Assembly (NCBI RefSeq): GCF_024296685.1
Contig: NZ_CP100763.1
Coordinates: 1,860,001 to 1,924,000 of the forward strand
Reading direction: 5' to 3'
Origin: Natrinema marinum
Lineage (GTDB): Archaea; Halobacteriota; Halobacteria; Halobacteriales; Natrialbaceae
Length of the DNA stretch: 64,000 bases
Shown piece after piece: positions 5,609 through 26,392 of this stretch (position 1 is the stretch's first letter; each line of letters opens with the position of its first letter). Both the position numbers and the translations under genes were made by a program. Under the pieces are notes generated by a model. It worked only from the letters and a program-made list of their open reading frames with translations. It had not been told where the DNA came from and did not search any database.

Positions 5609-6247
5609 GTGGGAGTATCGTTCGACCTCTTTGGGACGCTGGTGACCGCCGACCGCCCGGACGACCCAGCCGCGGCCGTCGCGACCGAACTCGAGAAGCG
5701 GGACGTGGCGGTGCCCGACGACTGGGCAGACGCCTACGCGGAGCCCCACGTCGACGCGCCCGAGGGCGCGGAGGTACCGCTGCCGGCGCACGTCTCGCGG
5801 GCGCTCGCGAGCCGCGGCGTCGACTACGAACACAACGCGGCCAGACGCGCGGTCGTCGCGGCGTTCGATCCGGCAGTCGAGACCAGACCGGGCGCGCTCG
5901 AGGCGGTCGACGCCGCCCGCGAACGAGGGCCGGTCGCGATCTGTTCGAACTGCAGCGTCCCGGAGCTGGTCGGTCGGACGCTCCTCAGGTCCGACTTCGA
6001 GCGCGACGACTTCGACGCCATCGTCACGAGCGTCGGCTGTGGCTGGCGCAAGCCCGCCGCCGAAATCTTCGAACTGACTGCCGACCGGCTCGGCGTCGCC
6101 CCCGAGACACTGGTCCACGTCGGCGACGATCCGCAGGCGGACGGCGGGATCGAAGCCGTCGGCGGGACGGCGCTGTTGCTCGAGGAGACGCCGCTCGCGG
6201 ATGTCCCGGCGCGACTGGCGGCGGTCGAACGTGGCGGCCATGACTGA
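5609..6247 (+). CDS. HAD-superfamily hydrolase heading the cobamide operon
   Basis: This 212-residue HAD hydrolase has motif I FDLFGTL with nucleophile Asp6, a C1-type helical cap, motif II around 'AICSNCS', motif III in GCGWRKPAAEIF and motif IV HVGDDPQAD. It is the first gene of a cluster where neighbours overlap or nearly overlap, 36 nt before cbiB, so it probably acts in the same pathway. A phosphatase step (alpha-ribazole-5'-phosphate or adenosylcobalamin-5'-phosphate) is otherwise unassigned in this cluster. That role is inference. The DLFGT form of motif I also occurs in dehalogenase-type HADs. Confidence 0.85.
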   Translation: MGVSFDLFGTLVTADRPDDPAAAVATELEKRDVAVPDDWADAYAEPHVDAPEGAEVPLPAHVSRALASRGVDYEHNAARRAVVAAFDPAVETRPGALEAVDAARERGPVAICSNCSVPELVGRTLLRSDFERDDFDAIVTSVGCGWRKPAAEIFELTADRLGVAPETLVHVGDDPQADGGIEAVGGTALLLEETPLADVPARLAAVERGGHD

Positions 6248-6283
6248 GCTGCCGGACCCTGACACCGAGACGGAGGCGATGAC

Positions 6284-7258
6284 GTGGCGCTGACGACGCT
6301 CGCCGTGATCGGACTGGCGTTCAGCCTCGATCTCCTGATCGGCGAGCCGCCGACCCCCGCCCATCCGGTGGCGTGGTTCGGCCGGCTCGTCGACGCCCTC
6401 GATCGGGAGTGGAGCGAATCCGAACGCGGCCAGCGCTTGGTCGGCGTCGGGGTCGCGGCCGCCGCGCCGCTCGTTCCCGCCGCGGTTGCCGGCGGCGCCG
6501 TCATCGCGGCGACCGCGTTGCACCCGCTCGCCGGCGCCATCGTCGCCGCTTTCGTCCTCTTTCTGACGACCAGCCTGCGCTCGTTGCTCGAGTTGACCGA
6601 GACCGTCGTCGCGGCCACGGACGGAAGCCTCGAGCGCGCTCGCGAGGACGTGATCGGGCTCGTCGGCCGCGACGCGTCGACGCTCTCGGCGGGCGAACTC
6701 CGCAGCGCCGCCGTCGAGAGCGCGGCCGAGAACCTCGCGGACGGGCTGGTCGCGAGCCTGCTTTCCTTCGCGGTCCTCGCGCCGATCTCGCTGCCGGCCG
6801 CCGCCGCGGCCGCCGCCTGGGTCAAGGGCGTCAACACGCTGGATTCGATGCTCGGCTACCACTCGAAGCCGATCGGGACGGCCAGCGCGCGCTTGGACGA
6901 CGCGGTGATGTACCTGCCCGCCAGAGTCGCGGCGGTCGCCATCGCCGTCGCCGCGGCCGCGCCCCGCTCGCTCGGCCGCGCTCGAGCGTGGGCGCAGGTC
7001 CCCCCGTCGCCCAACTCCGGCTGGCCGATGGCGACGCTCGCGGTCGCGCTCGGTGTCCGCCTCGAGAAGCCGGGCGTCTACGTCCTCAATCCCGACGCCG
7101 ACCTGCCGGCGCTGGCCGAGGGCGAGCGGGCCGTCACCCTCGTGGGACGGGGGGCCGCTGTCTCGGTCGTCCTCGCCGTCGCGCTCGCGGCCGTCGCGCC
7201 CGTCATCGGCGGAGAACTCGCGTCGCTGGGCCGAACGACGTTGGAGGTGGCGGGGTGA
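6284..7258 (+). CDS. cbiB: adenosylcobinamide-phosphate synthase CbiB
   Basis: This 324-residue integral membrane protein of the CbiB/CobD family joins adenosylcobyric acid to (R)-1-amino-2-propanol phosphate. The N-terminus LDLLIGEPPTPAHPVAWFG is the family signature, as are VKGVNTLDSMLGYHSKP (~183-199) and PPSPNSGWPMA (~240-250). Several hydrophobic helices are visible (~1-15, 55-95, 150-185, 290-310). It starts with GTG. Its stop overlaps the GTG of cobS by 4 nt, indicating translational coupling. Confidence 0.95.
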   Translation: MALTTLAVIGLAFSLDLLIGEPPTPAHPVAWFGRLVDALDREWSESERGQRLVGVGVAAAAPLVPAAVAGGAVIAATALHPLAGAIVAAFVLFLTTSLRSLLELTETVVAATDGSLERAREDVIGLVGRDASTLSAGELRSAAVESAAENLADGLVASLLSFAVLAPISLPAAAAAAAWVKGVNTLDSMLGYHSKPIGTASARLDDAVMYLPARVAAVAIAVAAAAPRSLGRARAWAQVPPSPNSGWPMATLAVALGVRLEKPGVYVLNPDADLPALAEGERAVTLVGRGAAVSVVLAVALAAVAPVIGGELASLGRTTLEVAG

Positions 7259-8022
7259 CCGCGATCGGTCGCTGGGTCGGTGCCGTCCGCGGCGCGCTCG
7301 GCTTTCTGACGCGGCTGCCGATCGGTTCCCGCGACGGTGACTGGGACGCGTTCCGGACGACGCCCGGTGCGTTTCCGATCGTCGGCCTCGTCGCCGGCGC
7401 GCTGGCGTCGCTCCCGCTGCTCGCCGCGGACACGCTCCCGGCTTCGACCGTCGCACTCGGCTACCTCCTCGCGGTGTACGCCGTGACGGGGATCCACCAC
7501 CTCGACGGCGTCGCCGATCTGGGCGATGCGCTGGTCGTCCACGGCGGCGTCGAGCGGCGCCGCGAGGTGTTGAAGGACACGACGACCGGTGTGGGTGCGC
7601 TGCTGGCGGTGGCGATCACGATCGCCGCGCTGGCGCTTGCCGGCCTCGGAGTGGCGGGCCTCCCGGTCGGCGCGGCGGTCGGCGTCGCGGTCGCGGCCGA
7701 GGTCGGAACGAAACTCGGCATTGCCGCGATGGCCTGCTTCGGGGCCGCGAGCTACGAGGGGATGGGACGGCAGTTCACCGCGGCGTCCGACCCCGCCTCG
7801 TTCGTCGCGCCCGCGGCGGTCGCGCTCCCCGTCGTCGCGCTCACCTGGCCCTCCTTCGCCGCGGCGGTCGCCCTCTGCGGTGCCGTCGCCGGCATCGGCC
7901 TCCCGTGGCACTGGGCGAACCGCCACCTCGGCGGGATTAACGGCGATATCTTCGGCGCGGCAAACGAGATCGGTCGCGTCGCCGGCGTCCACCTGGGGGT
8001 GATCGCGTGGACGCTCTCGTGA
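7255..8022 (+). CDS. cobS: adenosylcobinamide-GDP ribazoletransferase CobS
   Basis: This 255-residue membrane enzyme (cobalamin-5'-phosphate synthase) joins adenosylcobinamide-GDP with alpha-ribazole(-phosphate). It has the N-terminal LGFLTRLPIG and the metal-binding HHLDGVADLGDAL at ~81-93. GMGRQF and the C-terminal GGINGDIFGAANEIGRV also match CobS. Multiple transmembrane helices are present. The GTG start at 7255 overlaps the cbiB stop, and the gene overlaps cobY by 16 nt. Confidence 0.95.
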   Translation: MTAIGRWVGAVRGALGFLTRLPIGSRDGDWDAFRTTPGAFPIVGLVAGALASLPLLAADTLPASTVALGYLLAVYAVTGIHHLDGVADLGDALVVHGGVERRREVLKDTTTGVGALLAVAITIAALALAGLGVAGLPVGAAVGVAVAAEVGTKLGIAAMACFGAASYEGMGRQFTAASDPASFVAPAAVALPVVALTWPSFAAAVALCGAVAGIGLPWHWANRHLGGINGDIFGAANEIGRVAGVHLGVIAWTLS

Positions 8023-8609
8023 TGTGCGGCGGCAAGGGCACCCGCCTCGAGAGCCCCCACGAGAAGCCCCTGTACCCGATCGCCGGCACGCCGATGGTCG
8101 ATCGCGTGCTGGCGGCCCTCCGCGAGAGCGCGGTCGAGACGATTTACGCCGCCGTCTCGGCGAACGCCCCGGAGACGCGAGCGCACCTCGAGTCGGTCGC
8201 CGGCGTTCGGACGATCGAGACGGCCGGCGAGGGGTACGTAACCGACCTGCTGGCGCTCCTCGAGCGGCCCGAGATCTCGCCGCCCGTGCTGACCGTCGCC
8301 GCGGATCTGCCGCTGCTCGAGCACCCGGTCGTCGACCGGGTGCTCGCGGCCCACGGCGACGGGACCGGCTCACGGACGGTCTGCGTCCCCGCGGCGCTCA
8401 AACGGCGACTCGGGGTCAGCGTCGACTCGCGACTCGAGCCGGACGACCACCTCGCGCCGACCGGGGTCAACGTAGTCGGCACGACCGACGATTCCACAGC
8501 CATGACAGACGTTTCCTACGACTTGCGACTCGCAGTGAACGTGAACCGACTCGAAGACGCCCGCGTTGCGGCCGAGCGGCTGGGGAGCCCCATAGCGGAG
8601 GGGAACTGA
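8007..8609 (+). CDS. cobY: GTP:adenosylcobinamide-phosphate guanylyltransferase CobY
   Basis: This 200-residue archaeal CobY is the non-orthologous replacement of bacterial CobU. It activates adenosylcobinamide phosphate with GTP. The nucleotidyltransferase signature is at the N-terminus: DALVMCGGKGTRL, then EKPLYPIAGTPMVDRVL. A later acidic metal site (VLTVAADLPLL, ~93-103) also matches. The GTG start at 8007 lies within cobS. No kinase activity is expected, which fits an archaeal route through CbiB and CbiZ. Confidence 0.92.
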   Translation: MDALVMCGGKGTRLESPHEKPLYPIAGTPMVDRVLAALRESAVETIYAAVSANAPETRAHLESVAGVRTIETAGEGYVTDLLALLERPEISPPVLTVAADLPLLEHPVVDRVLAAHGDGTGSRTVCVPAALKRRLGVSVDSRLEPDDHLAPTGVNVVGTTDDSTAMTDVSYDLRLAVNVNRLEDARVAAERLGSPIAEGN

Positions 8610-8610
8610 G

Positions 8611-9663
8611 ATGCGCGTGCTCCTCCCCGCCGGCACGACCGAGACGGCCCTGATCGACGGTATCAGCGCCGCCGGGGCCGCGCCCGAACTGATGGAACAC
8701 ACCCCTTCCGCGGACGTGGAGATCCTCGCGTACGGCGAGCCGACCGCGTCGCCGGTGACGCCGGTGAGCCCAAACGGCTGCCCGACGCCCGCTGCCGTGA
8801 CCCGTGCGGTGCGGGAGGTCGTCGGCTTCGACGTGGCGGTGATCGACGCGGGGCTCACCCAGTCGACGGCCGCGCCGACGGTCGACCTCGGCGTCCGACC
8901 CGGAAACGACATTCGCGACCCGATCGCCGTGCCGGACGCGGACGCCGCCTTCGACCGCGCGTACGACTACGGGGCGAGCCTACCCGACGAGACCCTCGTG
9001 ATCGGCGAGACGGTCCCCGGCGGGACGACCACCGCGCTCGGCGTCCTCACCGCGCTCGGCGAGCCCAGCGGCGTCTCCTCGTCGCTGCCCGAGAACCCCA
9101 TCGAGCGCAAGCGCCGCGTCGTCGACGAGGCCCTGGCCGCGAGCGACCTCGAGGCCGGCGATTGCGCCCAGTCGCCGCTCGAGGCGATCGAGGCCGTCGG
9201 CGACCCCGTCCAGCCGACGGTGGCCGGCATCGCGGCCGGCGCGCTCGAGGCCGGGACCGACGTGACGCTCGGCGGCGGCACGCAGATGGTCGCCGTCGCG
9301 GCCGCGCTACGCCACGCCGGCGTCGACGGGCAGCTGTCGATCGCGACCACCTCGTTCGTGGCCGACGAACAGGGCGACCGGCTCGCGGAGGCCTGCGACC
9401 GGTTCGACTGCGATCTCACCGTCACCGACCCCGGCTTCGACGGGCGCGATCACGTCGCGATGGCGCGCTACTGCGCCGGCGAGGCCAAGGAGGGCGTCGC
9501 GATGGGCGGCGCGCTCTCGCTCGTTCCGGACGGGTGGATGGGGTCGGTCAGAGACCGACTCGAAGAGGTCTGTGCCCGACTCGGGATCGAGAGCGACGCC
9601 GCCGACGGACCGAGCGCCGAAAGCGACCCCGGCGACGCGCCGGAGGGCGGTCGTGGACGCTGA
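8611..9663 (+). CDS. cobT: archaeal CobT-like (nicotinate-nucleotide-DMB phosphoribosyltransferase family) protein
   Basis: This 350-residue protein belongs to the archaeal branch of the CobT family, proposed to make alpha-ribazole phosphate from the lower-ligand base. Visible features are the N-terminal VLLPAGTTETALIDG, ETVPGGTTTALGVLTALG (~131-148) and VTLGGGTQMVAVAAALRHAG (~212-231). Its position between cobY and cobD supports a nucleotide-loop role. It begins 1 nt after the cobY stop region and overlaps cobD by 11 nt. The activity of this archaeal subfamily is less well established than that of bacterial CobT. Confidence 0.85.
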   Translation: MRVLLPAGTTETALIDGISAAGAAPELMEHTPSADVEILAYGEPTASPVTPVSPNGCPTPAAVTRAVREVVGFDVAVIDAGLTQSTAAPTVDLGVRPGNDIRDPIAVPDADAAFDRAYDYGASLPDETLVIGETVPGGTTTALGVLTALGEPSGVSSSLPENPIERKRRVVDEALAASDLEAGDCAQSPLEAIEAVGDPVQPTVAGIAAGALEAGTDVTLGGGTQMVAVAAALRHAGVDGQLSIATTSFVADEQGDRLAEACDRFDCDLTVTDPGFDGRDHVAMARYCAGEAKEGVAMGGALSLVPDGWMGSVRDRLEEVCARLGIESDAADGPSAESDPGDAPEGGRGR

Positions 9664-10705
9664 GTCGATAGACACCGCCGAGCGGGTCCCCCACGGCGGC
9701 GAACCCGACCGCGACCTGCTCGACTTCTCGGCCAACACGAACCCCCGGACGCCCGAGGGCGTCGACGACGTGTACGCGGCCGCGCTCGAGGAATCGCGAC
9801 GCTACCCGGACGACGGCTATCCCGACTACCGAGAGGCGGCGGCCGCGTTCGTCGGCTGCGATCCCGAGCGTGTGATCCCGACCCCCGGCGGGCTCGCCGC
9901 CATTCGGCTGGCGATGGAAACCGCACTCGAGCCCGGCGACGAGGCGCTCGTTCCCTACCCGAGCTTCGGGGAGTACGCCCGAGAGGTCCGGTTGCAGGGG
10001 GCCACCTCTCGGTTCGTCCGCTACGACGAACTGTTCGATGTCGGGCCGGCGGTGCTCGAGCCCTGCGCGCTGGCGGTGGTCTGTACGCCGAACAACCCGA
10101 CCGGCGACGCGGCCGATCCGGCGGGGCTCGAAGCCCTCGTGGATCGCTGTGCGGACGCCGGCACGACCCTACTCGTCGACGAGGCCTTCCTCGGTTACAC
10201 GGAACTGCCGTCGGCCGCCACCCTCGAGCGCGAGCACGTCGTCGTCGCCCGCTCGCTCACCAAACTGTTCGGGCTGCCGGGGCTGCGCGCCGGCTTCGCC
10301 GTCGCGAGCGGGCAGCGGCGTGATCGGCTCGAGACGGCTCGACGCGCGTGGTCGCTCGGGACGCCGGCCGCCCGAGTCGGCGCGCACTGTCTCCGCCAGC
10401 GGGCGTTCGTCCGTGATACGCGCGAGCGCGTCGACCGCGAGCGCGAGCGATTGCGTGAAGCGCTCGAGGGTGCGTTCGGTGTCCACCCGTCGGACGCGCC
10501 CTACCTCCTGTGTGACGTGGGCAACCGCGACGTGTCGCAGGTGATCGCCGATACACGAGCCGACGGCGTCGCGATCCGGGACGCGACGACGTTCCGCGGG
10601 CTCGACTCGCACGTCCGCGTCGCGGTCAAGGACCGCGCGTCGAACGACCGCCTGCTGGCGGCGCTGGGCGTTCGCGGCGATGACGATGGAGGGACGGATG
10701 AGTGA
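9653..10705 (+). CDS. cobD: L-threonine-O-3-phosphate decarboxylase CobD (PLP enzyme)
   Basis: This 350-residue class I/II aminotransferase-fold protein is expected to decarboxylate L-threonine phosphate to aminopropanol phosphate, the substrate of CbiB. Signatures are LLDFSANTNPRTP (~22-34), TPNNPTG (145-151), LLVDEAFLGY (173-182) and the Schiff-base lysine K204 in SLTKLFGLPGLRAGF. The GTG at 9653 was chosen because it overlaps cobT by 11 nt and starts near the expected N-terminus; the longer frame from 9572 adds an Arg/Pro-rich tail. No L-threonine kinase is visible in the cluster. Confidence 0.9.
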   Translation: MDAESIDTAERVPHGGEPDRDLLDFSANTNPRTPEGVDDVYAAALEESRRYPDDGYPDYREAAAAFVGCDPERVIPTPGGLAAIRLAMETALEPGDEALVPYPSFGEYAREVRLQGATSRFVRYDELFDVGPAVLEPCALAVVCTPNNPTGDAADPAGLEALVDRCADAGTTLLVDEAFLGYTELPSAATLEREHVVVARSLTKLFGLPGLRAGFAVASGQRRDRLETARRAWSLGTPAARVGAHCLRQRAFVRDTRERVDRERERLREALEGAFGVHPSDAPYLLCDVGNRDVSQVIADTRADGVAIRDATTFRGLDSHVRVAVKDRASNDRLLAALGVRGDDDGGTDE

Positions 10706-11495
10706 CACCGATCCCGCGTACGACGCGATCCGGCGGGACGGCGTCCTCCGGGTCAGCCGGCCGGACGCCGAGTGGCTCTCGACCGGCTGGGACGGCGGCC
10801 GCTGCGTCGCCGCCCACGCGTACAACGTCTCGGTCCCGGAGGGATGGGGACAGACCGATCTCGGCGAGTACGTCGACGACCGCCTCGAGCGAGCGGGCTT
10901 CGATCGGGCCAGCGCCGACGCGGCCGGGCCGGCCCTGCTGACCGGCGTCGACATCGCGGACGCCCGCGGCGCTCGCCGCGGTCCCGTGACGGCCTACGCG
11001 ACCGCCGGGGTTTCGAACCCCGCCGCGCTCCCGATGGAACCGAGCGACGCCGCGTCCGAACCCGATGGAGTTCAGGGCGACGACTCGAGCGCCGAGCGCG
11101 GTCAGGGCCGGGGAACGGTCAACGTCATCGTTGGAACGACGCGCGCGCTCGCGCCCGGTGCGCTGGCGAATCTCATCGCGGTCGCCGCGGAGGCGAAAGC
11201 CGCGACGCTGCTCGCCGAGACCGGCTTTCCGGGAACCACGACGGACGCGGTCGTCGTCGGCCACGATCCCTCGGGGACGCCGGCGGACTTCTCCGGCAGC
11301 GGCACCGAGGTCGGCGCGGCGGCCCGCGCCTGCGTCCGGGACGCCGTTCGGGCGTCGCTGCGCGCCCACTACGCGGACGGCGACGTGGAACGGCCCGACT
11401 CCGTCGCGGACGCCCCGTACGGCGTGTCGACGGCCGAGCGCGCCGCGGTGTTTCGGCCGCGACCGGCGGACGAAGCCGTCGAACCCGAGGGTTAA
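10698..11495 (+). CDS. cbiZ: adenosylcobinamide amidohydrolase CbiZ
   Basis: This 265-residue CbiZ cleaves the aminopropanol arm of scavenged adenosylcobinamide to give adenosylcobyric acid, which CbiB can re-use. Family features are RPDAEWLSTGWDGGR, PALLTGVDIADAR, AYATAGVSNPAA, VNVIVGTTRALAPGALANLI and the GYPGTTTDA-like segment FPGTTTDAVVVGHDP. The ATG at 10698 follows a GGAGGG at 10688-10693; an earlier in-frame ATG at 10680 is possible. The gene overlaps cobD by 8 nt. The pairing of CbiZ with CobY shows a corrinoid salvage route. Confidence 0.92.
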   Translation: MSDTDPAYDAIRRDGVLRVSRPDAEWLSTGWDGGRCVAAHAYNVSVPEGWGQTDLGEYVDDRLERAGFDRASADAAGPALLTGVDIADARGARRGPVTAYATAGVSNPAALPMEPSDAASEPDGVQGDDSSAERGQGRGTVNVIVGTTRALAPGALANLIAVAAEAKAATLLAETGFPGTTTDAVVVGHDPSGTPADFSGSGTEVGAAARACVRDAVRASLRAHYADGDVERPDSVADAPYGVSTAERAAVFRPRPADEAVEPEG

Positions 11496-11521
11496 ACGGC
11501 CGCGCGTCCAATCCGAACCCG

Positions 11522-11974
11522 ATGGTCGAGGACGACTCCGCAGCCGAAACCGACGACCCGTCGGCGATCCGTTCGGTCGCGCTCTCGCCGGACGACGCGG
11601 TCGACGCCTACGCCTACAGTCAGGAGAACCCAGGTGAGGCCGTCCTCCGGCTGACCCCGCCGTTCCACGGCCGGATGCGGGCCCGCATCCACGTCTACCG
11701 CGTCGACGACACCGAACTGACCGGCGCGGTCCACCTCGCGCCCGCCGACGTCATCGCGGACGACATCGTCGCAGCGTATCCCGACCTCGAGTCCGAACTC
11801 GCGGACGCGGACGCCAGCGCGGATGCCAACTCGAGCGAGGCCGAGCGACTCCGCGAGCGCCACGCCGACGCCGTCGCGGACTGGCAGGACCGCGCCCGCG
11901 GGGCGATCGTCGACGCGGTACCGCTCGAGACGGACGACGGCCCCCACCGCGTCGAGGTCAAGACGCTCGGCTGA
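11522..11974 (+). CDS. conserved haloarchaeal protein of unknown function
   Basis: This 150-residue acidic soluble protein lies 26 nt after cbiZ on the same strand. A predicted alpha/beta segment (VLRLTPPFHGRMRARIHVYRV, then HLAPADVIADDIV) is followed by a Glu/Asp/Ala-rich helix and a C-terminal strand. I recognise it only as a haloarchaeal conserved hypothetical type; its proximity to the cobamide operon may be incidental. Confidence 0.7.
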   Translation: MVEDDSAAETDDPSAIRSVALSPDDAVDAYAYSQENPGEAVLRLTPPFHGRMRARIHVYRVDDTELTGAVHLAPADVIADDIVAAYPDLESELADADASADANSSEAERLRERHADAVADWQDRARGAIVDAVPLETDDGPHRVEVKTLG

Positions 11975-12098
11975 ATCGCCGTGACTCGGGCCCGACGCTC
12001 GCGCTCCTCGAGTCAGCGGATCGGAGCCGCTCCGTCCCGTACTTTCACTTTCACTCCGGACGGGTCGGTTTGACGTACTGTCGGTCTAACTGAAACGT

Positions 12099-18734: not shown

Positions 18735-19613
18735 ATGACGGGGCGCTCGAGTTCGGCGACCGAGGCCGAGTCCGCGCTCGGCGAGGAGTTGTCGTATCTG
18801 CTGACGCTCTCGCGGCCGCGGTTCTGGTTGTATCTGGCTGGCCCCGTCCTCGTCGGCGTCGCCTACGCCGCGGCGTCGGTCGGGGAACTGGTCACGCCGG
18901 CGACGGTCGCGCTGTTCGCGTACTTCCTCGTGCCGGCGAACGTCTTCCTCTACGGGATCAACGACATCTACGACCGGGAGATCGACGCCGAGAACCCGAA
19001 GAAAGCGGACCGTGAGGCCCGCTACCGCGGCCAGCGGTACGTTCCCGCCGCCGTGGGGCTCTGTGCGGCGCTCCCCCTGCTGTTCGCGCCGCTGCTTTCG
19101 ACCGCGGCCTGGCCCTGGCTCGTCGCCTTCCTCATCCTCGGGGCGGCCTACAGCGCCCCGCCGGTCAGGTTCAAGACGACGCCCATCCTCGATTCTGTCT
19201 CGAACGGGCTCTACGTGACGCCGGGGATCGCCGCCTACGCCGCCGTCGCGGCCATCCAGCCGCCGTTGCTGGCGATCGCCGGCGGCTGGCTGTGGGCGAT
19301 GGGGATGCACACCTTCTCGGCAGTCCCCGACATCGAGCCCGACCGCGAGGCGGGGATCCGGACCACCGCGACGGTGCTCGGCGAGGGGCGCACCTACGCC
19401 TACTGCGGCGCGTGCTGGCTCGCGAGCGCGGCCGCTTTCGGCGCGCTCGATTACCGATTGGGCGCGCTCATGCTCGTCTATCCCGCGCTCGTCGCCGCGA
19501 TCGCGGTCGCCAACGTCGCCGTCGACCGCGCGTACTGGTGGTTCCCCGCGATCAACACCGTCGTCGGCGCGCTCCTGACGATGGGCGGACTCTGGAGGGT
19601 GGCTCATGGGTAG
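18735..19613 (+). CDS. lyeJ: lycopene elongase/hydratase LyeJ (UbiA prenyltransferase)
   Basis: This 292-residue UbiA-superfamily membrane protein has the first Asp-rich motif NDIYDREID at 76-84 and a second around DIEPDREAGIRTTAT (~200-214), plus about eight transmembrane helices. In haloarchaea this enzyme adds C5 isoprene units to lycopene and hydrates the 1,2-double bond toward C50 bacterioruberin. Its placement between crtD and cruF supports that function over menaquinone synthesis. Its stop overlaps the cruF start by 8 nt. Confidence 0.9.
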   Translation: MTGRSSSATEAESALGEELSYLLTLSRPRFWLYLAGPVLVGVAYAAASVGELVTPATVALFAYFLVPANVFLYGINDIYDREIDAENPKKADREARYRGQRYVPAAVGLCAALPLLFAPLLSTAAWPWLVAFLILGAAYSAPPVRFKTTPILDSVSNGLYVTPGIAAYAAVAAIQPPLLAIAGGWLWAMGMHTFSAVPDIEPDREAGIRTTATVLGEGRTYAYCGACWLASAAAFGALDYRLGALMLVYPALVAAIAVANVAVDRAYWWFPAINTVVGALLTMGGLWRVAHG

Positions 19614-20529
19614 CGACGAGGCGACGAGGTCGTCCGCGAGCCCGCGCTCGAGCGCTGAAACCGCCGCCGACGAGACCGACCCGGTGCGAACGCGGGCCGC
19701 TGTCCAGCGCCGGCTCGAGGACCTCGTCCGCGAGAATCGCTTCACGATCGCAGTGGTCTTCCCGGTCGTCGGCGCGATATCGCTACTCGCGAGCGCGGCG
19801 GAGTTGCTCCCGCCGCCGCTTGCGTACAACCCGCTGTTGCTCCTGTTCGGGACACTGGTGATGCGCTCGCCGCTGGTCGTCGCGTTGCTGCCCGAAATCG
19901 ACCGACGGGCGCTCGTCCCGCTGGTCGTCTTGACGGCATACACCTACGCGATCGAGTTCGTCGGCGTCCGGACCGGCTGGCCCTACGGCCCCTTCGAATA
20001 CGGCATCGAGCTGGGGCCGATGCTGGCCGGCGAGGTCCCGCTTGCGCTGCCGCTGTTTTTCGTGCCGCTGGTGCTGAACGCCTACCTGCTCTCGTTACTA
20101 CTACTCGGAGAGCGGATCGAACACGCCCTGCCTCGCCTTTTCGCCGCGGTCGCCGCCGTCCTCGCGATCGATCTGGTCCTCGATCCGGGTGCCGTCGCGA
20201 TCGGCTTCTGGTCGTACGACCCGTCGGGCGGCTACTACGGCGTCCCGCTCTCGAACTACCGGGGGTGGCTCCTCTCGGGGACCGTCGCCGTCGTCCTCGT
20301 CGATCTCGCGTTCGATCGCGCGGCCGTCGTAGAGCGCGTTCGAGCTTGCGAGTTCGCGCTGGACGACCTGGTAAGCTTCGTCCTGCTCTGGGGGACAATC
20401 AACGTCCTCTACGGGCAGTGGCTGGCGGCCGGGGTGGCCGGCCTGTTCTGTCTCGCCCTCGCCCGGACCGATCGGTACGACCTCGCGATAGTTCGGCGGA
20501 CGCTGCCGGGGAGCCACCCCCAAAAATAG
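19606..20529 (+). CDS. cruF: bisanhydrobacterioruberin hydratase CruF
   Basis: This 307-residue membrane protein of the CruF/DUF422 carotenoid-hydratase family has the conserved YAIEFVGVRTGWPYGPFEYG (~112-131) and LVLDPGAVAIGFWSYDPSGGYYGVPLSNYRGW (~184-215; acidic and aromatic residues). Seven hydrophobic helices are visible. It hydrates the end groups to give bacterioruberin, the last step of the pathway. A soluble, Ser/Thr/Glu-rich N-terminal ~40 residues precedes the first helix. Translation is probably coupled to lyeJ. Confidence 0.92.
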   Translation: MGSDEATRSSASPRSSAETAADETDPVRTRAAVQRRLEDLVRENRFTIAVVFPVVGAISLLASAAELLPPPLAYNPLLLLFGTLVMRSPLVVALLPEIDRRALVPLVVLTAYTYAIEFVGVRTGWPYGPFEYGIELGPMLAGEVPLALPLFFVPLVLNAYLLSLLLLGERIEHALPRLFAAVAAVLAIDLVLDPGAVAIGFWSYDPSGGYYGVPLSNYRGWLLSGTVAVVLVDLAFDRAAVVERVRACEFALDDLVSFVLLWGTINVLYGQWLAAGVAGLFCLALARTDRYDLAIVRRTLPGSHPQK

Positions 20530-20557
20530 CCACTGTCGGACGGTCCCGATCGACCAG

Positions 20558-20710
20558 TCAGACGAACAGACTCGAGATGCTGTCGCCGAACAAGAGCAAT
20601 AACACGACGGCAGCGACCGTCACCGCGAGCCAGACGCCGAGCCCGATCGCGGTCGTTCGCGCCATCTCTCGTTCCTCGTCGATGACTGTCGAATTCGCGT
20701 TCGTAGACAT
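20558..20710 (-). CDS. 50-residue single-span membrane protein
   Basis: ATG at 20710, TGA at 20558. Product: an acidic N-terminus (MSTNANSTVIDEEREMA), then one helix AIGLGVWLAVTVAAVVLLLLF and GDSISSLFV. A TATA-like gttattc about 27 nt upstream suggests its own leaderless promoter. It sits tail-to-tail with cruF and just downstream of crtB. Function unknown. Confidence 0.65.
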   Translation of the reverse strand: MSTNANSTVIDEEREMARTTAIGLGVWLAVTVAAVVLLLLFGDSISSLFV

Positions 20711-20751
20711 AGCTGTTCGTTCGACTGCGGGAATAACAAACGGAAATCCAC

Positions 20752-20772
20752 CATATCGAGGGGTTTGATATG
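20752..20772. repeat. inverted repeat CATATC-N9-GATATG after crtB
   Basis: Six-bp perfect arms with a 9-nt spacer lie 10 nt beyond the crtB stop and upstream of the small membrane gene. It could be an operator for the latter or a processing or termination signal. Confidence 0.35.
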
Positions 20773-20782
20773 CGCCGGATAG

Positions 20783-21733
20783 CTACCGGGTCGGAATCCT
20801 GTCTCCGTGCTCGGGACCGCGCCGGTCCGGTTCGGTCGTCGGCACCGCCGACACCCGCTGGAACACGGCTTCCGGATCGCGGTTCCAGTGCCAGTGCCAG
20901 CGCGTCTTCGCGAGACACCACAGCTTTCGAGCCGTCGACAGCGACGGCTCGCTCGAGAGCACGTCGTACCCCTGTGCGCGAATGACGGCGTGGTGTTCCG
21001 CGTAGAGGACCGCCGCCAGTAACACCGGGAGCTGGCAGTCCTCGGGGAGGTATCGGATGCCGGCGACGCCCTCGCGGTAGAGTTCCTCGGTCCGCTGGAG
21101 TTCGCTCGCCATCGCCGTGGCGAACGACTCGGAGTGCTCGAGGCGCTCGATCTGTTCGGGGTCGACACCGTGTTCCCGCAGCGTCTCTTGGGGAACGTAG
21201 ATCCGGTCGCGCTCGACGATGTCCTCGCGGACGTCGCGCAGGAAGTTCGTCATCTGGAACGCCTCGCCGAGTTTGACGGCGTGGGGGAGCGCGGCCTCCT
21301 CGGCGTCGGACTCCATGATCGCCGTCATCATCACGCCGACCGACGCGGCCGAGCCGCGCATGTAGGACTCGAGGTCGCCATAGGTCTCGTACCGGTCGGT
21401 TTCGATGTCGGCCGCCATCGCATCGATGAAGGTGTCGACCTCCTCGGCGGAGATCCCGTAGCGCTCCCGCAGTTCCCCGAACGCCTCGAGGACGGGGTCG
21501 TCGGGCGGTTGCTCGCCTGTCGCCTGCGCACGAAGGTCCTCGAGCCGGGCTCGCTGCTCTGCGGGAGGAGTGCCGTCTGCGTCGTCGACGACCTCGTCCG
21601 CGATCCGGAAGAACGCGTAGAGGACGTGCGTGGCGTGTCGCACCCGCTCGGGGAGAAACCGCGTCGCGAGATAGAACGTCTTTCCGGTCCGCTTCTGTAT
21701 CGCCTTGCCTGCGTCGATATGTTCCTGTTTCAT
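20783..21733 (-). CDS. crtB: phytoene synthase CrtB
   Basis: This 316-residue squalene/phytoene synthase condenses two geranylgeranyl diphosphates to phytoene. Asp-rich motif 1 is DEVVDD (46-51); motif 2 is NFLRDVREDIVERDRIYVP (~163-181). Both bind Mg-diphosphate. YAFFRIADEVVDD and GEAFQMTNFLRDV are classic. It supplies substrate to the divergent crtD-lyeJ-cruF operon. It lies 120 nt downstream of bat on the same strand but has its own TATA box. Halobacterium crtB1 is also next to bat. Confidence 0.95.
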   Translation of the reverse strand: MKQEHIDAGKAIQKRTGKTFYLATRFLPERVRHATHVLYAFFRIADEVVDDADGTPPAEQRARLEDLRAQATGEQPPDDPVLEAFGELRERYGISAEEVDTFIDAMAADIETDRYETYGDLESYMRGSAASVGVMMTAIMESDAEEAALPHAVKLGEAFQMTNFLRDVREDIVERDRIYVPQETLREHGVDPEQIERLEHSESFATAMASELQRTEELYREGVAGIRYLPEDCQLPVLLAAVLYAEHHAVIRAQGYDVLSSEPSLSTARKLWCLAKTRWHWHWNRDPEAVFQRVSAVPTTEPDRRGPEHGDRIPTR

Positions 21734-21853: not shown

Positions 21854-23455
21854 TTAGTCGAACAGTTCGTCGAGGAGCTTCCGCTGGGCGGTCCGCAGGT
21901 GCTGGTGGAACGTCGACCGAGAGATGTCCATCGATTCGGCCAGTTCCTCGCCCGAGACGTCGCGGGGCCACTCGAAGTAGTTGGCGTAGTAGGCCGTCCG
22001 TAGCGCCGTGAGCTGGCGATCGGTCAGCGATGACTCGAGTTGCGTCGTCACGTCCCGTCTCGTTCGTGCCGGCTCCTCCTGTTCGTGGTAGCTGATGAGT
22101 TCCACGCGGTCGTACCGACGCTCCAGCAGGTCGTAGGCCGAGCGCGCCGCGCGGCCGTCAGGCAGTTCGACGGCGAGTTCCGCGGGCCCATCGGCCGCCG
22201 CCGTCAACCGCCGGATCACCGCGCCGTGCTCGCTCAGCGCCGTCACGAGACCGTCCTCGGCGGTGACCTCGAAGATCGAACCGTCTTCGTCCCCCGAGAG
22301 GACCGTCACCTCGCGGCCGTCGCCGATTCCTTCCGCGACGCCGTCGGCGGTGACCTCGCAATCGGCGTACAGAAACACCAGCGGCGTGCCGTCGCGGTCG
22401 TAGGTCAGCCCGCGATACGTGATCTCGGCCTCGAGGGCCCGCGACAGCGCCGTAACGAGCAGGGACGGGTCCGCGATCGTGAACTCGGTGGCGACGACGC
22501 GCTCGGTCGTGAGCATCCGCTTGGTCTCGAGGGCGTTCATCGCGGTCGCGACGGTCCCGGAGAGCGACTCGAGGACGAGCAGTTCGCGCTGGTCGAACGC
22601 GTCGGGCTCGTCGGCGAACACGACGAGCACGCCGTAGGTCACGTCACCGTACGCGATGGGGAGCGCGGCGACCGACCGGAAGCGGTCCCCGGCCCCCGAC
22701 GGCCACCACCGGTCGGCGTCGTCGAACGACGCCACATCCTGAATCAGTTGCGCCTCGCCGTCTTCGACCGCTCTGACGGCGGGATGGGTCTCGTCGGACC
22801 GCAAAACGAGTTCGTCGTCCTCGAGGGGGACCTCGTCCCGGCTGGCCCACTCGCGGGGCGAGAGCCGCTGATTCGTCACGTCGACGCGACCGACCCAGGC
22901 GAGGACGTACGGATCGGTCTCCGCGAGTCGGCGGCAGACCTCGCGTTCGATCTCCCCTCGGGTCCCCGCGCCGACGGCGGCGTCCGTGACATCGCGGACC
23001 AACCCGTCGACGCGGTCGAGAACGTGCTCGAGCGCCCGTCGCTCCTCGCGGACCTGCTCGGCGTTTTCCGCCGCCTCGATCTCGGCTACCTTTCGCTCGG
23101 TGATCTCGAGGTGGATGACGGAGACGAACAGTTCGCCGTGATCGGTAAACCGGTTGGCCCGCATCATGAACCACTGCCGCTCATCGGGCGTGTGACAGGG
23201 GTACTCCATCGCGAACGAATCCCGGTCGCCCGCGAGGACGGCCTCGATCCCGTCGACCGCCCGCTGGGCGTGCTCGTCGTCGTCCGTCGCGGCGGTCGCG
23301 AGGTAGTTGACACCGACGTGTTCGGCGGTGTCGCTCGAGTCGAACTCGCGCCAGGAGCGGTTCGTCAGCAGGATGTCCCCGTCGCCGTCGATGATAGCCA
23401 CGGTGATCGGAAGCGTCTCGAAGGCCGCTGCGGCGAGATCGTGGCTGGCGTCCAT
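21854..23455 (-). CDS. bat: Bat-type regulator (PAS-GAF-HTH, bacterio-opsin activator family)
   Basis: This 533-residue cytosolic sensor-regulator has a PAS domain at ~10-120 (AAFETLPITVAIIDGDGDIL) and a linker helix. A GAF domain follows at ~150-310 (ALPIAYGDVTYGVLVVFADEPDAF), then the bacterio-opsin activator middle domain. The C-terminal HTH_10 domain reads LTDRQLTALRTAYYANYFEWPRDVSGEELAESMDISRSTFHQHL. In Halobacterium, Bat senses oxygen and light and activates bop, brp and crtB1; the crtB neighbour supports a carotenoid-control role here. No bop or brp is in the window. It is divergent from the PGF-CTERM gene at 23612. Confidence 0.88.
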   Translation of the reverse strand: MDASHDLAAAAFETLPITVAIIDGDGDILLTNRSWREFDSSDTAEHVGVNYLATAATDDDEHAQRAVDGIEAVLAGDRDSFAMEYPCHTPDERQWFMMRANRFTDHGELFVSVIHLEITERKVAEIEAAENAEQVREERRALEHVLDRVDGLVRDVTDAAVGAGTRGEIEREVCRRLAETDPYVLAWVGRVDVTNQRLSPREWASRDEVPLEDDELVLRSDETHPAVRAVEDGEAQLIQDVASFDDADRWWPSGAGDRFRSVAALPIAYGDVTYGVLVVFADEPDAFDQRELLVLESLSGTVATAMNALETKRMLTTERVVATEFTIADPSLLVTALSRALEAEITYRGLTYDRDGTPLVFLYADCEVTADGVAEGIGDGREVTVLSGDEDGSIFEVTAEDGLVTALSEHGAVIRRLTAAADGPAELAVELPDGRAARSAYDLLERRYDRVELISYHEQEEPARTRRDVTTQLESSLTDRQLTALRTAYYANYFEWPRDVSGEELAESMDISRSTFHQHLRTAQRKLLDELFD

Positions 23456-23611: not shown

Positions 23612-24838
23612 ATGAATCGCATCGTACTTCTCGTCGTCGTGGCGGTCTGCCTGGTGCCGCTGGTCGGTGCCGGGGCGGCCCAATCGACCGAGAGGGTGAC
23701 GGTAACCGTTCACGTCGTCGACGACGCCGGCAACGACGTCGGCGACGCAGCGGTGACCGCATCGTGGGATGGGGGAGAAGCGACCGGGACGACGGCCTCG
23801 AACGGGCAGACGCTCATCGACGTTCCGAAGAGCGCGGACGTCTCGGTGACCGTCGAGCACGCCGACTACGTCCTGAACAATCCGGCGAGGCTCGGAGCCG
23901 TGACCGATCACACGACTCGAACCGTCGAGGTCCACGCGCCGACCGGCGGCGAGATCGCGGTGACGGAAGACGGCGACTCGGTCGCCGACGCGACCGTGAC
24001 GCTCACCAAGGTCGGCGACGACCGCGCGGCCGCGACGGGGACGACCGACGCCGACGGCGCCTTCGCGGTCGAGAACATCGAGGCCGGCGTCTACGACGTG
24101 ACCGTCCGCAAACCCGGCTACTACGAGCGGTCGACGACCGTCGATCTGGCGTCGACCGACAGCACGACCGTCGACATCGAGTCCGGGAGCGCGGAGGTCA
24201 CGTTCGCAGTCACTGACAGCACGCTCGAGCAACCACTCGAGGTCGACGTGACCATCTTACACGATGGCAAGCGCGACTCGACGCTCTCGACGAACGAGAA
24301 AGGCGAGCGCAGTATCGACTTGCAAGTCAACACCAAGTACACCGTTCGCATCGAGGGCGACGGCTACGGCACACACGAGCGGCAACTGACGGTCGGCGAG
24401 ACCGACACGAGCCGCAGCTATCGGATCGAACGAACGCCGATGCTGACCGTCGAGTCCGCGAACGAACGCGTCCTCCTCGGCGAAACCGTCAGCGTGACCG
24501 TCACCGACGAGTACGGCGAGCCCGTGGAGGGCGCGACGGTCCGCCTCGACGGCTCGAGCGCCGCCACGACGAACGCAGAGGGAGCCGCGACGGTTCCGAT
24601 CGAGACGGCGGGCGAGCTCGAACTGACGGCAGAGGCCGACGGGACGACCTCGAGTCCGGTCGTCGTCGAGGGCGTCGATCCGAACGGTGCCGATTCGAAC
24701 GGCGGCGAGGGGAGCGAAAGCGAGAACTCGAGCGCTGATACGCCGGCCGACGACGGAATGCCGGGCTTCGGATCGCCGGCCGCGATCGCTGCGATCGCCG
24801 CGGTCGTCGGCGGATTCGTCGCTCGGCAACGCCGATAA
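23612..24838 (+). CDS. PGF-CTERM surface protein with carboxypeptidase-regulatory-like repeats
   Basis: This 408-residue secreted protein has a signal peptide at ~1-24 (MNRIVLLVVVAVCLVPLVGAG). Four beta-sandwich repeats follow, each with the pattern G..V.dA.V....G...gtT...G...i.v..G.Y.V.V, seen at ~30-95, 100-170, 180-265 and 270-350. Such CarboxypepD_reg-like domains are structural or adhesive. A Ser/Glu-rich linker leads to DGMPGFGSPAAIAAIAAVVGGF, a PGF-CTERM archaeosortase signal. The start at 23612 fits the promoter; the 7-codon longer form is unlikely. Confidence 0.88.
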   Translation: MNRIVLLVVVAVCLVPLVGAGAAQSTERVTVTVHVVDDAGNDVGDAAVTASWDGGEATGTTASNGQTLIDVPKSADVSVTVEHADYVLNNPARLGAVTDHTTRTVEVHAPTGGEIAVTEDGDSVADATVTLTKVGDDRAAATGTTDADGAFAVENIEAGVYDVTVRKPGYYERSTTVDLASTDSTTVDIESGSAEVTFAVTDSTLEQPLEVDVTILHDGKRDSTLSTNEKGERSIDLQVNTKYTVRIEGDGYGTHERQLTVGETDTSRSYRIERTPMLTVESANERVLLGETVSVTVTDEYGEPVEGATVRLDGSSAATTNAEGAATVPIETAGELELTAEADGTTSSPVVVEGVDPNGADSNGGEGSESENSSADTPADDGMPGFGSPAAIAAIAAVVGGFVARQRR

Positions 24839-25264
24839 GCACGGCAGTCGCCGTCGACGGCGTGGTGCTCTCCGGCTGAGACGTTCACAAACGCTTATAT
24901 ATTCGTTTGTGGACTGGTTCCACGGAGGTCAGGCGTGCTGGGTCGCTGATCCACCCGACGACGAGCCGAGTACCGGATTCGGGCGGTTCGCCGGACTACC
25001 GGTCGCCCCGGGACAGGTACTCGAGGCGGGAGCCGAACCGACGAGGCGATCTCCGATCGAGATCCGCGCGAGCGGACGGGCGATCCGACGACGGCTCGCG
25101 TCGCGTCGGACCGGCTCGACCGAATCGCGTTGTCCACGCTCATCCCCTGTCAACCGCGGTCGCGGCCGATCGTCACACCGATCGGCCGCACGACCCGTTG
25201 GTCGCCGTGACAGTTCCGCGCGATCGAACAAACTCCTATGGGGGTCTATGGCATACTCAGAGGC
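24839..25264. other. 426-bp region with a palindromic promoter and no clear gene
   Basis: Frames here give Arg/Ser/Pro-rich or short products that I do not accept as genes. One GTG frame from 24909 (MDWFHGGQACWVADPPDDEP...) starts inside the palindrome and has a somewhat plausible first ~40 residues, then degrades in composition. A non-coding transcript from the TATA at 24895-24901 is possible. Confidence 0.45.
24886..24911. promoter_or_regulatory. TATA box enclosed in a perfect 8+8 bp inverted repeat
   Basis: CACAAACG (24886-24893), cttatatatt (24894-24903), CGTTTGTG (24904-24911): perfect arms around an AT-rich TATA sequence. A dimeric repressor on the arms would block TBP. The element is nearly symmetric and could fire in both directions. 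Confidence 0.6.
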
Positions 25265-25426
25265 ATGGCGAGTGACACAGCTCTACACGAACGGTCGCGA
25301 TGTCGCAACTGCGGCTTCGAAGCCCCGGGCGGAGACGACGAATGGCGGCGGATCGTCGTCCCGAAACTCGGTCGAATGACCCAGTGTCCAAACTGCGAGA
25401 GCACGGACGTCATCACGAGCCGCTGA
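25265..25426 (+). CDS. 53-residue two-CxxC zinc-finger protein
   Basis: Product [19 protein letters not shown]...[16 protein letters not shown]13/C16 (RCRNCG) and C41/C44 (QCPNCE) form a probable zinc ribbon. It belongs to the abundant haloarchaeal small zinc-finger proteins of unknown role. The ATG at 25265 is preferred over the GTG/ATG upstream, because homolog-like sequence begins here. Confidence 0.75.
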
Positions 25427-25526
25427 CCGGCCGTCGAGTGCGACGCTCCGAGCGGCTGTCGTCGCCGGCGACGACAGCTGCGAGTGCGCAGACAGACTCT
25501 TGAGTGTCTCGCCCCTACCGAAACCC

Positions 25527-26045: not shown

Positions 26046-26244
26046 ATGTCCAACGACCGACCGACAGCCGAGGGACTACGACAGGGAATGACCGTCGAAC
26101 TCGTATAGGACGACGCGGACCGCAGTCCGAGGATTCGGAGCCGCTCGTCGGCGAAGACGGGACGGTCTACGGTGACGAGCCCGAGAGACCGCACGTCGAA
26201 CTGAAAGGCGGCGTCGGCCGCGTTCGGTCGTCGGTCACGAGTGA
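26046..26244 (+). pseudogene. decayed DUF2196 (YwbE-like) gene
   Basis: The start reads MSNDRPTAEGLRQGMTVELV, then TAG at 26106-26108 where the family has a Gln. One base later than needed, a different frame continues as PQSEDSEPLVGEDGTVYGDE and RPHVELKGGVGRVRSSVT, so one C has been lost near 26120-26122 (gcggac|cgcag). A second shift near the end (gtcacgagtga in place of a VTE-stop ending) places the original stop at 26242-26244. At least three lesions show the gene is dead. Family assignment rests on my recall of haloarchaeal DUF2196 proteins. Confidence 0.75.
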
Positions 26245-26266
26245 AAGGGGCGCATACTGCTAATTC

Positions 26267-26337
26267 CGTTCTTCAACCATAATCCGATATTGCACCGCAT
26301 CCTGGGCGTAAATACACATTTTTATTCGTTCTTCAAC
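26267..26337 (+). repeat. 11-bp direct repeat cgttcttcaac, copies exactly 60 bp apart
   Basis: Copies lie at 26267-26277 and 26327-26337. The first is followed by cat, and its extension cttcaaccat (26271-26280) is inverted as atggttgaag at 26367-26376, overlapping the alternative start of the next gene. A TATA-like ttttatt lies between. These are possible paired operator sites. Confidence 0.4.
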
Positions 26338-26392
26338 ACACTATCGGACCCATTCCGACACATTCATGGTTGAAGTGCAGAAATACGTGAGT

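Follow-up and report, generated by a model that had tools for sequence, protein, structure and literature searches.

Upstream of a small zinc-finger gene in Natrinema lies what appears, on comparison with related genera, to be an HTH_63 gene, for a regulator-like protein, that was stripped of its coding body in the ancestor of these halophilic archaea. We lean towards the view that this descendant of a messenger RNA, now devoid of an open reading frame (ORF), is still under selection in its promoter and core helix, probably as a non-coding RNA whose transcription, start site and function are predicted from sequence. The coding part was lost but the promoter and two pairing RNA pieces have been kept throughout the genus and, therefore, the element may act as a non-coding RNA.

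The window, meaning the whole 64-kb stretch of DNA that was analysed, holds no credible gene in the gap between an upstream ORF ending at 24838 and the zinc-finger ORF starting at 25265, in agreement with the initial annotation. Among the origins which that annotation had offered for the gap, a relic of a lost gene is borne out, the lost gene being HTH_63 (PF20575). The features, in window coordinates, are the following.

24886-24911, no strand: perfect 8+8 bp dyad, CACAAACG-CTTATATATT-CGTTTGTG, enclosing the TATA box
24890-24901, plus strand: BRE/TATA region (AACGCTTATATA), aligned as AACRCTTTTATA in congeners and also found before intact HTH_63 genes in other genera
24904-24914, plus strand: promoter-proximal element CGTTTGTGGAC, separated from ACGGAG by a constant 7 nt in 25 of 29 Natrinema genomes
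24922, plus strand: expected transcription start, within 3 nt either way, predicted from the TATA position and the rigid spacing
24921-25055, plus strand: core of the element (HTH_63 remnant), modelled as R1 by alignment and covariance model
24923-24930, plus strand: 5' arm of helix P2 (CGGAGGTC), pairing with 25048-25055, with one G-U pair here
24967-24974, plus strand: 5' arm of helix P3 (CGAGTACC), derived from codons for the N-terminus of the lost HTH_63 protein
25016-25023, plus strand: 3' arm of P3 (GGTACTCG)
25048-25055, plus strand: 3' arm of P2 (GATCTCCG), derived from the DEAISDR codons close to the 3' end of the lost gene
25132-25152, plus strand: conserved GTCCACGCTCATCCCCTGTCA block, which in other genera reads TGTCACACGCTC after the HTH_63 stop codon
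25162-25189, plus strand: covarying hairpin, 11 bp in the window, a separate module beside the zinc-finger gene
25265-25426, plus strand: downstream gene, encoding a CPxCG zinc-finger protein of 53 aa; 117 of 125 family genomes carry it

Promoter layout and the palindrome

The promoter consists of a TATA box, CGTTYGTGGAC, exactly seven variable nucleotides and ACGGAGATC, an order that is rigid in 25 of the 29 Natrinema genomes; in most other genera the promoter-proximal element is CGTGGAC-like. This rigid layout, together with the same promoter standing before intact genes in other genera, upholds the earlier reading of the TATA element as a promoter. The spacing from TATA box to start in haloarchaea is about 25 nt, and transcription from this TATA box would be expected to start near 24922. 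Haloarchaeal TATA, BRE and -10 motifs are described in PMC4983044. On the 3' side of ACGGAGATC, the aligned copies continue with GACGAGG-GATCTCCGA, then GTCCACGCTC...CCCTGTCA and then the hairpin. A closing helix, P1, suggested by RNAalifold between GTGGAC (24909-24914) and GTCCAC (25132-25137), was discarded: GTGGAC is located 5' of the predicted start and is just as well conserved where the 3' block of other genera reads GTCACACGC.

The inverted repeat with the TATA element inside it is present exactly as first described. It is matched once in the window (chance expectation 0.00), and the search for this 26-bp element elsewhere, which the initial annotation had proposed, found no second copy in the 3.77 Mb one-contig genome. 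Its symmetry is not conserved in relatives: among the 25 promoter-bearing Natrinema copies, seven or more of the eight arm positions are complementary only in the window's own copy and in that of G014, and arm complementarity averages 4.32/8 within a copy versus 4.25/8 with a right arm borrowed from a different species. The left arm is not kept among congeners; the right arm, CGTTTGTG, owes its conservation to being part of the promoter element CGTTYGTGGAC. The TATA box is conserved for its own sake and not as part of the dyad, which is a species-specific accident. With the dyad kept in just 2 of 25 copies, a palindromic operator over the TATA box was rejected, and control of the promoter by the palindrome is not supported.

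Descent from an HTH_63 gene

DNA 5' of the CPxCG gene was taken from other genera of the family, and 72 loci were examined. At 37 of them (36 intact genes and a remnant in G057) an HTH_63 gene precedes the CPxCG gene behind the same kind of promoter, and two intact orthologs match PF20575 (HTH_63) with E-values of 1.2e-51 and 2.1e-53. Matched by eye, the Natrinema element resembles both the start of this gene (leader, GTG, ...ELWIRS) and its end (...DEAISDR). Intact loci and element share their place before the CPxCG gene, their promoter, the leader and, where present, the 3' arm; the intact loci, however, have a coding body, whereas in Natrinema the body is absent and the frame broken, so that promoter, leader and 3' piece are left. 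Viewed as a PF20575 protein gene, the element offers only short N- and C-terminal codon remnants, with no frame running across the 25 copies, and the HTH_63 genes found in the 29 Natrinema genomes are only paralogs of 27-38% identity. A literature search on HTH_63/PF20575 found nothing.

Leader and 3' arm also occur without the body, at different breakpoints, in two g20 genomes, one g22 genome and G057 (g24). In a tree of one neighbouring aminotransferase (29 rows, rooted with a distant paralog as outgroup and containing several weak forks), G057 falls in a group with two g24 genomes that have the intact gene (97/99), g20 in one with g21, likewise intact (85/59), and the g20, g22 and G057 deletions are parted from Natrinema by intact lineages. 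From the placement of G057 and g20 we infer at least three independent losses of the HTH_63 body, on the strength of a one-protein tree with weak forks. At the G057 locus (L134), an internal deletion in HTH_63 leaves a single open frame in which ...ERALER is fused to DVATDP..., a possible intermediate in gene loss.

The window contains a second decayed gene at 26047-26256, where a frame starting MSNDRPTAEGLRQGMTVELV stops at once and the remainder lies in another frame. We take it to resemble a short haloarchaeal gene of the YwbE/DUF2196 type; a Pfam search with both pieces gave no match. Nearby, the direct repeat GTTCTTCAAC occurs at 26268-26277 and 26328-26337, 60 bp apart, on either side of a TATA-like TTTTTATT that precedes the ORF at 26366, and may be a pair of operators. 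Further away, a regulator resembling the bacterio-opsin activator (PAS, GAF, BAT, HTH_10) is encoded on the minus strand at 21854-23455, adjoined at 19606-21733 by genes that look carotenoid-like by eye, and the G+C content of 6001-12000 is 73-74%, compared with about 66% in the surroundings.

Pairing within the element and its alternatives

The leader CGGAGATC is complementary to the 3' piece GATCTCCG, and the resulting helix, P2, has eight pairs, with CGGAGRTC as its 5' arm. In the 20 aligned Natrinema copies, 160 of 160 cells are paired, five of the pairs being invariant and three varying through G-U only; the 3' arm is identical in all 20 rows, and in G091, outside the alignment, a single change keeps the pair. 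P3 is the weaker helix, with 89.4% of its cells paired in the Natrinema alignment and two of eight pairs changed on both sides. Taken together, the two helices covary modestly within Natrinema: both sides have changed in 2 of 16 pairs, a number reached in 233 of 500 shuffles.

Covariation of P2 across genera is supported. Counted by eye, 12 of the 36 intact HTH_63 loci combine a GGAGRTC leader with a 3' arm, 21 are without the leader, three (G080, G089, G090) have the leader without the 3' arm and none has the 3' arm alone. In intact genes P2 extends to as many as 11 bp (G051), and one of its pairs is changed on both sides in G077. Paired with its own leader the arm scores 17.9, versus 16.1 when leaders are permuted, a value as high being reached in none of 5000 permutations; with one locus for each of 14 genera the permutation fraction is 0.007. 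Two points count against the RNA reading: the GATCTCC of the 3' arm also encodes an IS motif in the intact genes, and three of these loci, as just noted, have a leader with no 3' arm to match. At one further HTH_63 locus (L122, in G134) the leader is unrelated, and an 8-bp complement to it lies close to the 3' end (ACCAGCGA/TCGCTGGT); the helix may have been replaced there. Relative to dinucleotide shuffles, the fold z-score averages -2.32 over the 25 copies, with a range of 0.03 to -5.1, and two MsrB control stretches give -0.32 and -0.54; the window's own copy, at z = 0.03, folds no better than its shuffles.

The hairpin at 25162-25189 stands 3' of CCCTGTCA, and in 21 of the 25 copies the best hairpin in the next 75 nt beats shuffles at p of 0.05 or less; the other four (G002, G011, G016, G019) have a different, longer arrangement there. 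Our alignment of 18 of the 25 copies (those four, G024, G092 and G093 being excluded) has compensatory changes, on both sides of the pair, in 6 of 13 pairs, and a covariation score of 0.344 versus 0.227 for shuffled alignments, none of 500 of which reaches it; slid alignments score at most 0.175. The hairpin is also seen by eye in the congeners without the 5' part and, therefore, may belong to the zinc-finger gene.

The arms of P2 form an inverted repeat, which would co-evolve with a DNA-binding protein as well. GGAGATC and GATCTCC might accordingly be bound by a protein as two inverted sites, one of them an operator at the transcription start and the other lying downstream, through which the promoter/operator region controls the zinc-finger gene with no role for RNA; the binder would perhaps be an HTH_63 paralog, such paralogs persisting in 29 of 29 Natrinema genomes, or another regulator, and the conserved CGTTYGTGGAC upstream of the expected start would suit such a site. 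We nevertheless regard a DNA-level site as rather unlikely, since all one-sided changes in the arms leave a G-U pair (about seven events by eye: G000, G078, G009/G093, G022, G091, G052 and G081), which favours RNA. In addition, the zinc-finger gene has a conserved TATA-like site of its own, and the upstream element is dispensed with in 4 of 29 congeners.

Constraint, distribution and a possible route to non-coding RNA

A DNA search with 24700-25430 found matches across the seemingly gene-free stretch in 30 of 41 genomes, including all 24 congeners searched. Of the 29 Natrinema genomes, 25 have the leader together with the 3' arm (in G003 the arm reads GATCTCCGT and escaped a strict pattern), and G001, G008, G013 and G015 are without the 5' part. 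Over 276 congener pairs, the mean identity of the element is 0.643, versus 0.635 at the fourfold sites of the MsrB and CPxCG genes; the element exceeds those sites in 145 pairs, and clearly so only at high divergence (0.63 versus 0.52 in the 0.50-0.55 bin). The 26-nt leader stretch has an identity of 0.81 and the 26-nt TATA stretch one of 0.58. With the leader above the fourfold sites but the element as a whole level with them, selection would therefore act on blocks and not on the whole.

That the whole element is no more conserved than fourfold sites would also be expected of a slowly dying relic, in which the ancestor of Natrinema lost the gene and what remains is drifting; the conserved blocks would then be residues and the helices a side effect of GC-rich sequence. 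Half of the element is lost in 4 of 29 congeners, and large insertions or deletions lie inside it in G020, G091, G093 and G014. Such a course is, in our judgement, distinctly unlikely in view of the leader identity of 0.81, the invariance of the 3' arm in the aligned rows, the mean fold z-score and the survival of both arms through other deletions in other lineages. Very improbable, finally, is a short peptide translated from a GTG behind the leader, the very short protein once suggested for this place: the GTG, 13 nt into the element, opens a four-codon frame before TGA in G000, G012, G014, G023 and G094, but it is absent from most of the 25 copies, which share neither start codon nor reading frame.

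With a threshold of E 0.001, a covariance model of the core has matches in 38 of 125 family genomes; 23 of these are Natrinema, with E-values no higher than 1.9e-8. Across the order it matches 22 of 293 genomes, all 10 strong matches being Natrinema. Weak matches of about 30-37 bits (g26, g32, g35, other families) were taken as chance, because, of the loci retrieved for them, only those in G056 and G057 adjoin the CPxCG gene and the others look coding-like by eye; a match in G020, away from the element, was likewise taken as chance. The exact promoter-plus-leader pattern occurs on 13 contigs of named genomes, seven from Natrinema (six species), one from Haloterrigena sp. H1 and five, taken as chance, from unrelated bacteria. 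The element has no Rfam 15 match at gathering score (the best below it is ALIL, E 0.017) and is neither RNase P RNA nor SRP RNA, both of which lie elsewhere in the genome (the RNase P match being below the cut-off); there is no tRNA in the window. A MITE-like element with inverted ends was rejected by reasoning alone, from the single model match in G000, the constant place and the position of the promoter outside the repeats.

On the reading we prefer, that of a non-coding RNA descended from the HTH_63 mRNA, the Natrinema ancestor would have lost the body of the gene and retained the promoter, a short leader and a 3' piece of the reading frame. The transcript would begin near 24922, and its 5' end, CGGAGRTC, would fold onto GATCTCCG about 125 nt downstream, P2 thus closing a structured domain that holds the inner hairpin P3. 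This helix between 5' and 3' regions would predate the loss, as it is predicted in the mRNA of intact genes in other genera, and would have outlasted the protein. In those genes P2 would cover the leader just 5' of the GTG. According to PMC3986360, the SD motif is without importance in 5'-UTRs of H. volcanii, for which reason P2 more likely acts on 5'-end access or stability than by SD masking alone. The RNA would most likely be a stable regulatory RNA with its 5' end masked by P2, although a role in cis on the neighbouring zinc-finger gene is also possible. The small RNA of the initial annotation is, in sum, plausible from the conservation and covariation of the helix, with the transcript itself a prediction. 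More tentatively, and with a good deal of doubt, a two-function archaeal mRNA, its 5' end paired with the 3' end of the coding region, may have lost its protein more than once, namely in Natrinema, in g20/g22 and in a single g24 species, and lived on each time as a non-coding RNA round the same helix, which would make the passage from mRNA to non-coding RNA traceable in archaea.

Mammalian long non-coding RNAs described as fossils of protein-coding genes (PMC5577775) offer a parallel, in that a non-coding unit retains regulatory elements of the lost gene; the Natrinema element differs in being archaeal, about 130-300 nt long and defined by an ancestral mRNA helix, with a predicted transcript. 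The likeness to sRNA132 of H. volcanii, as presented in PMC6560208, lies in its being haloarchaeal and intergenic with a promoter of its own. A literature search found no archaeal case of an mRNA turned non-coding RNA. If the RNA is made and selected, the locus would exemplify a route to archaeal non-coding RNA in which the protein is lost while the promoter and an old mRNA helix stay; since the intact gene, the G057 deletion and the old ORF-less Natrinema forms share one syntenic place, each step is testable. In the haloarchaeal HTH_63 mRNAs themselves, the long-range 5'-3' helix could control the translation or stability of the regulator's message.
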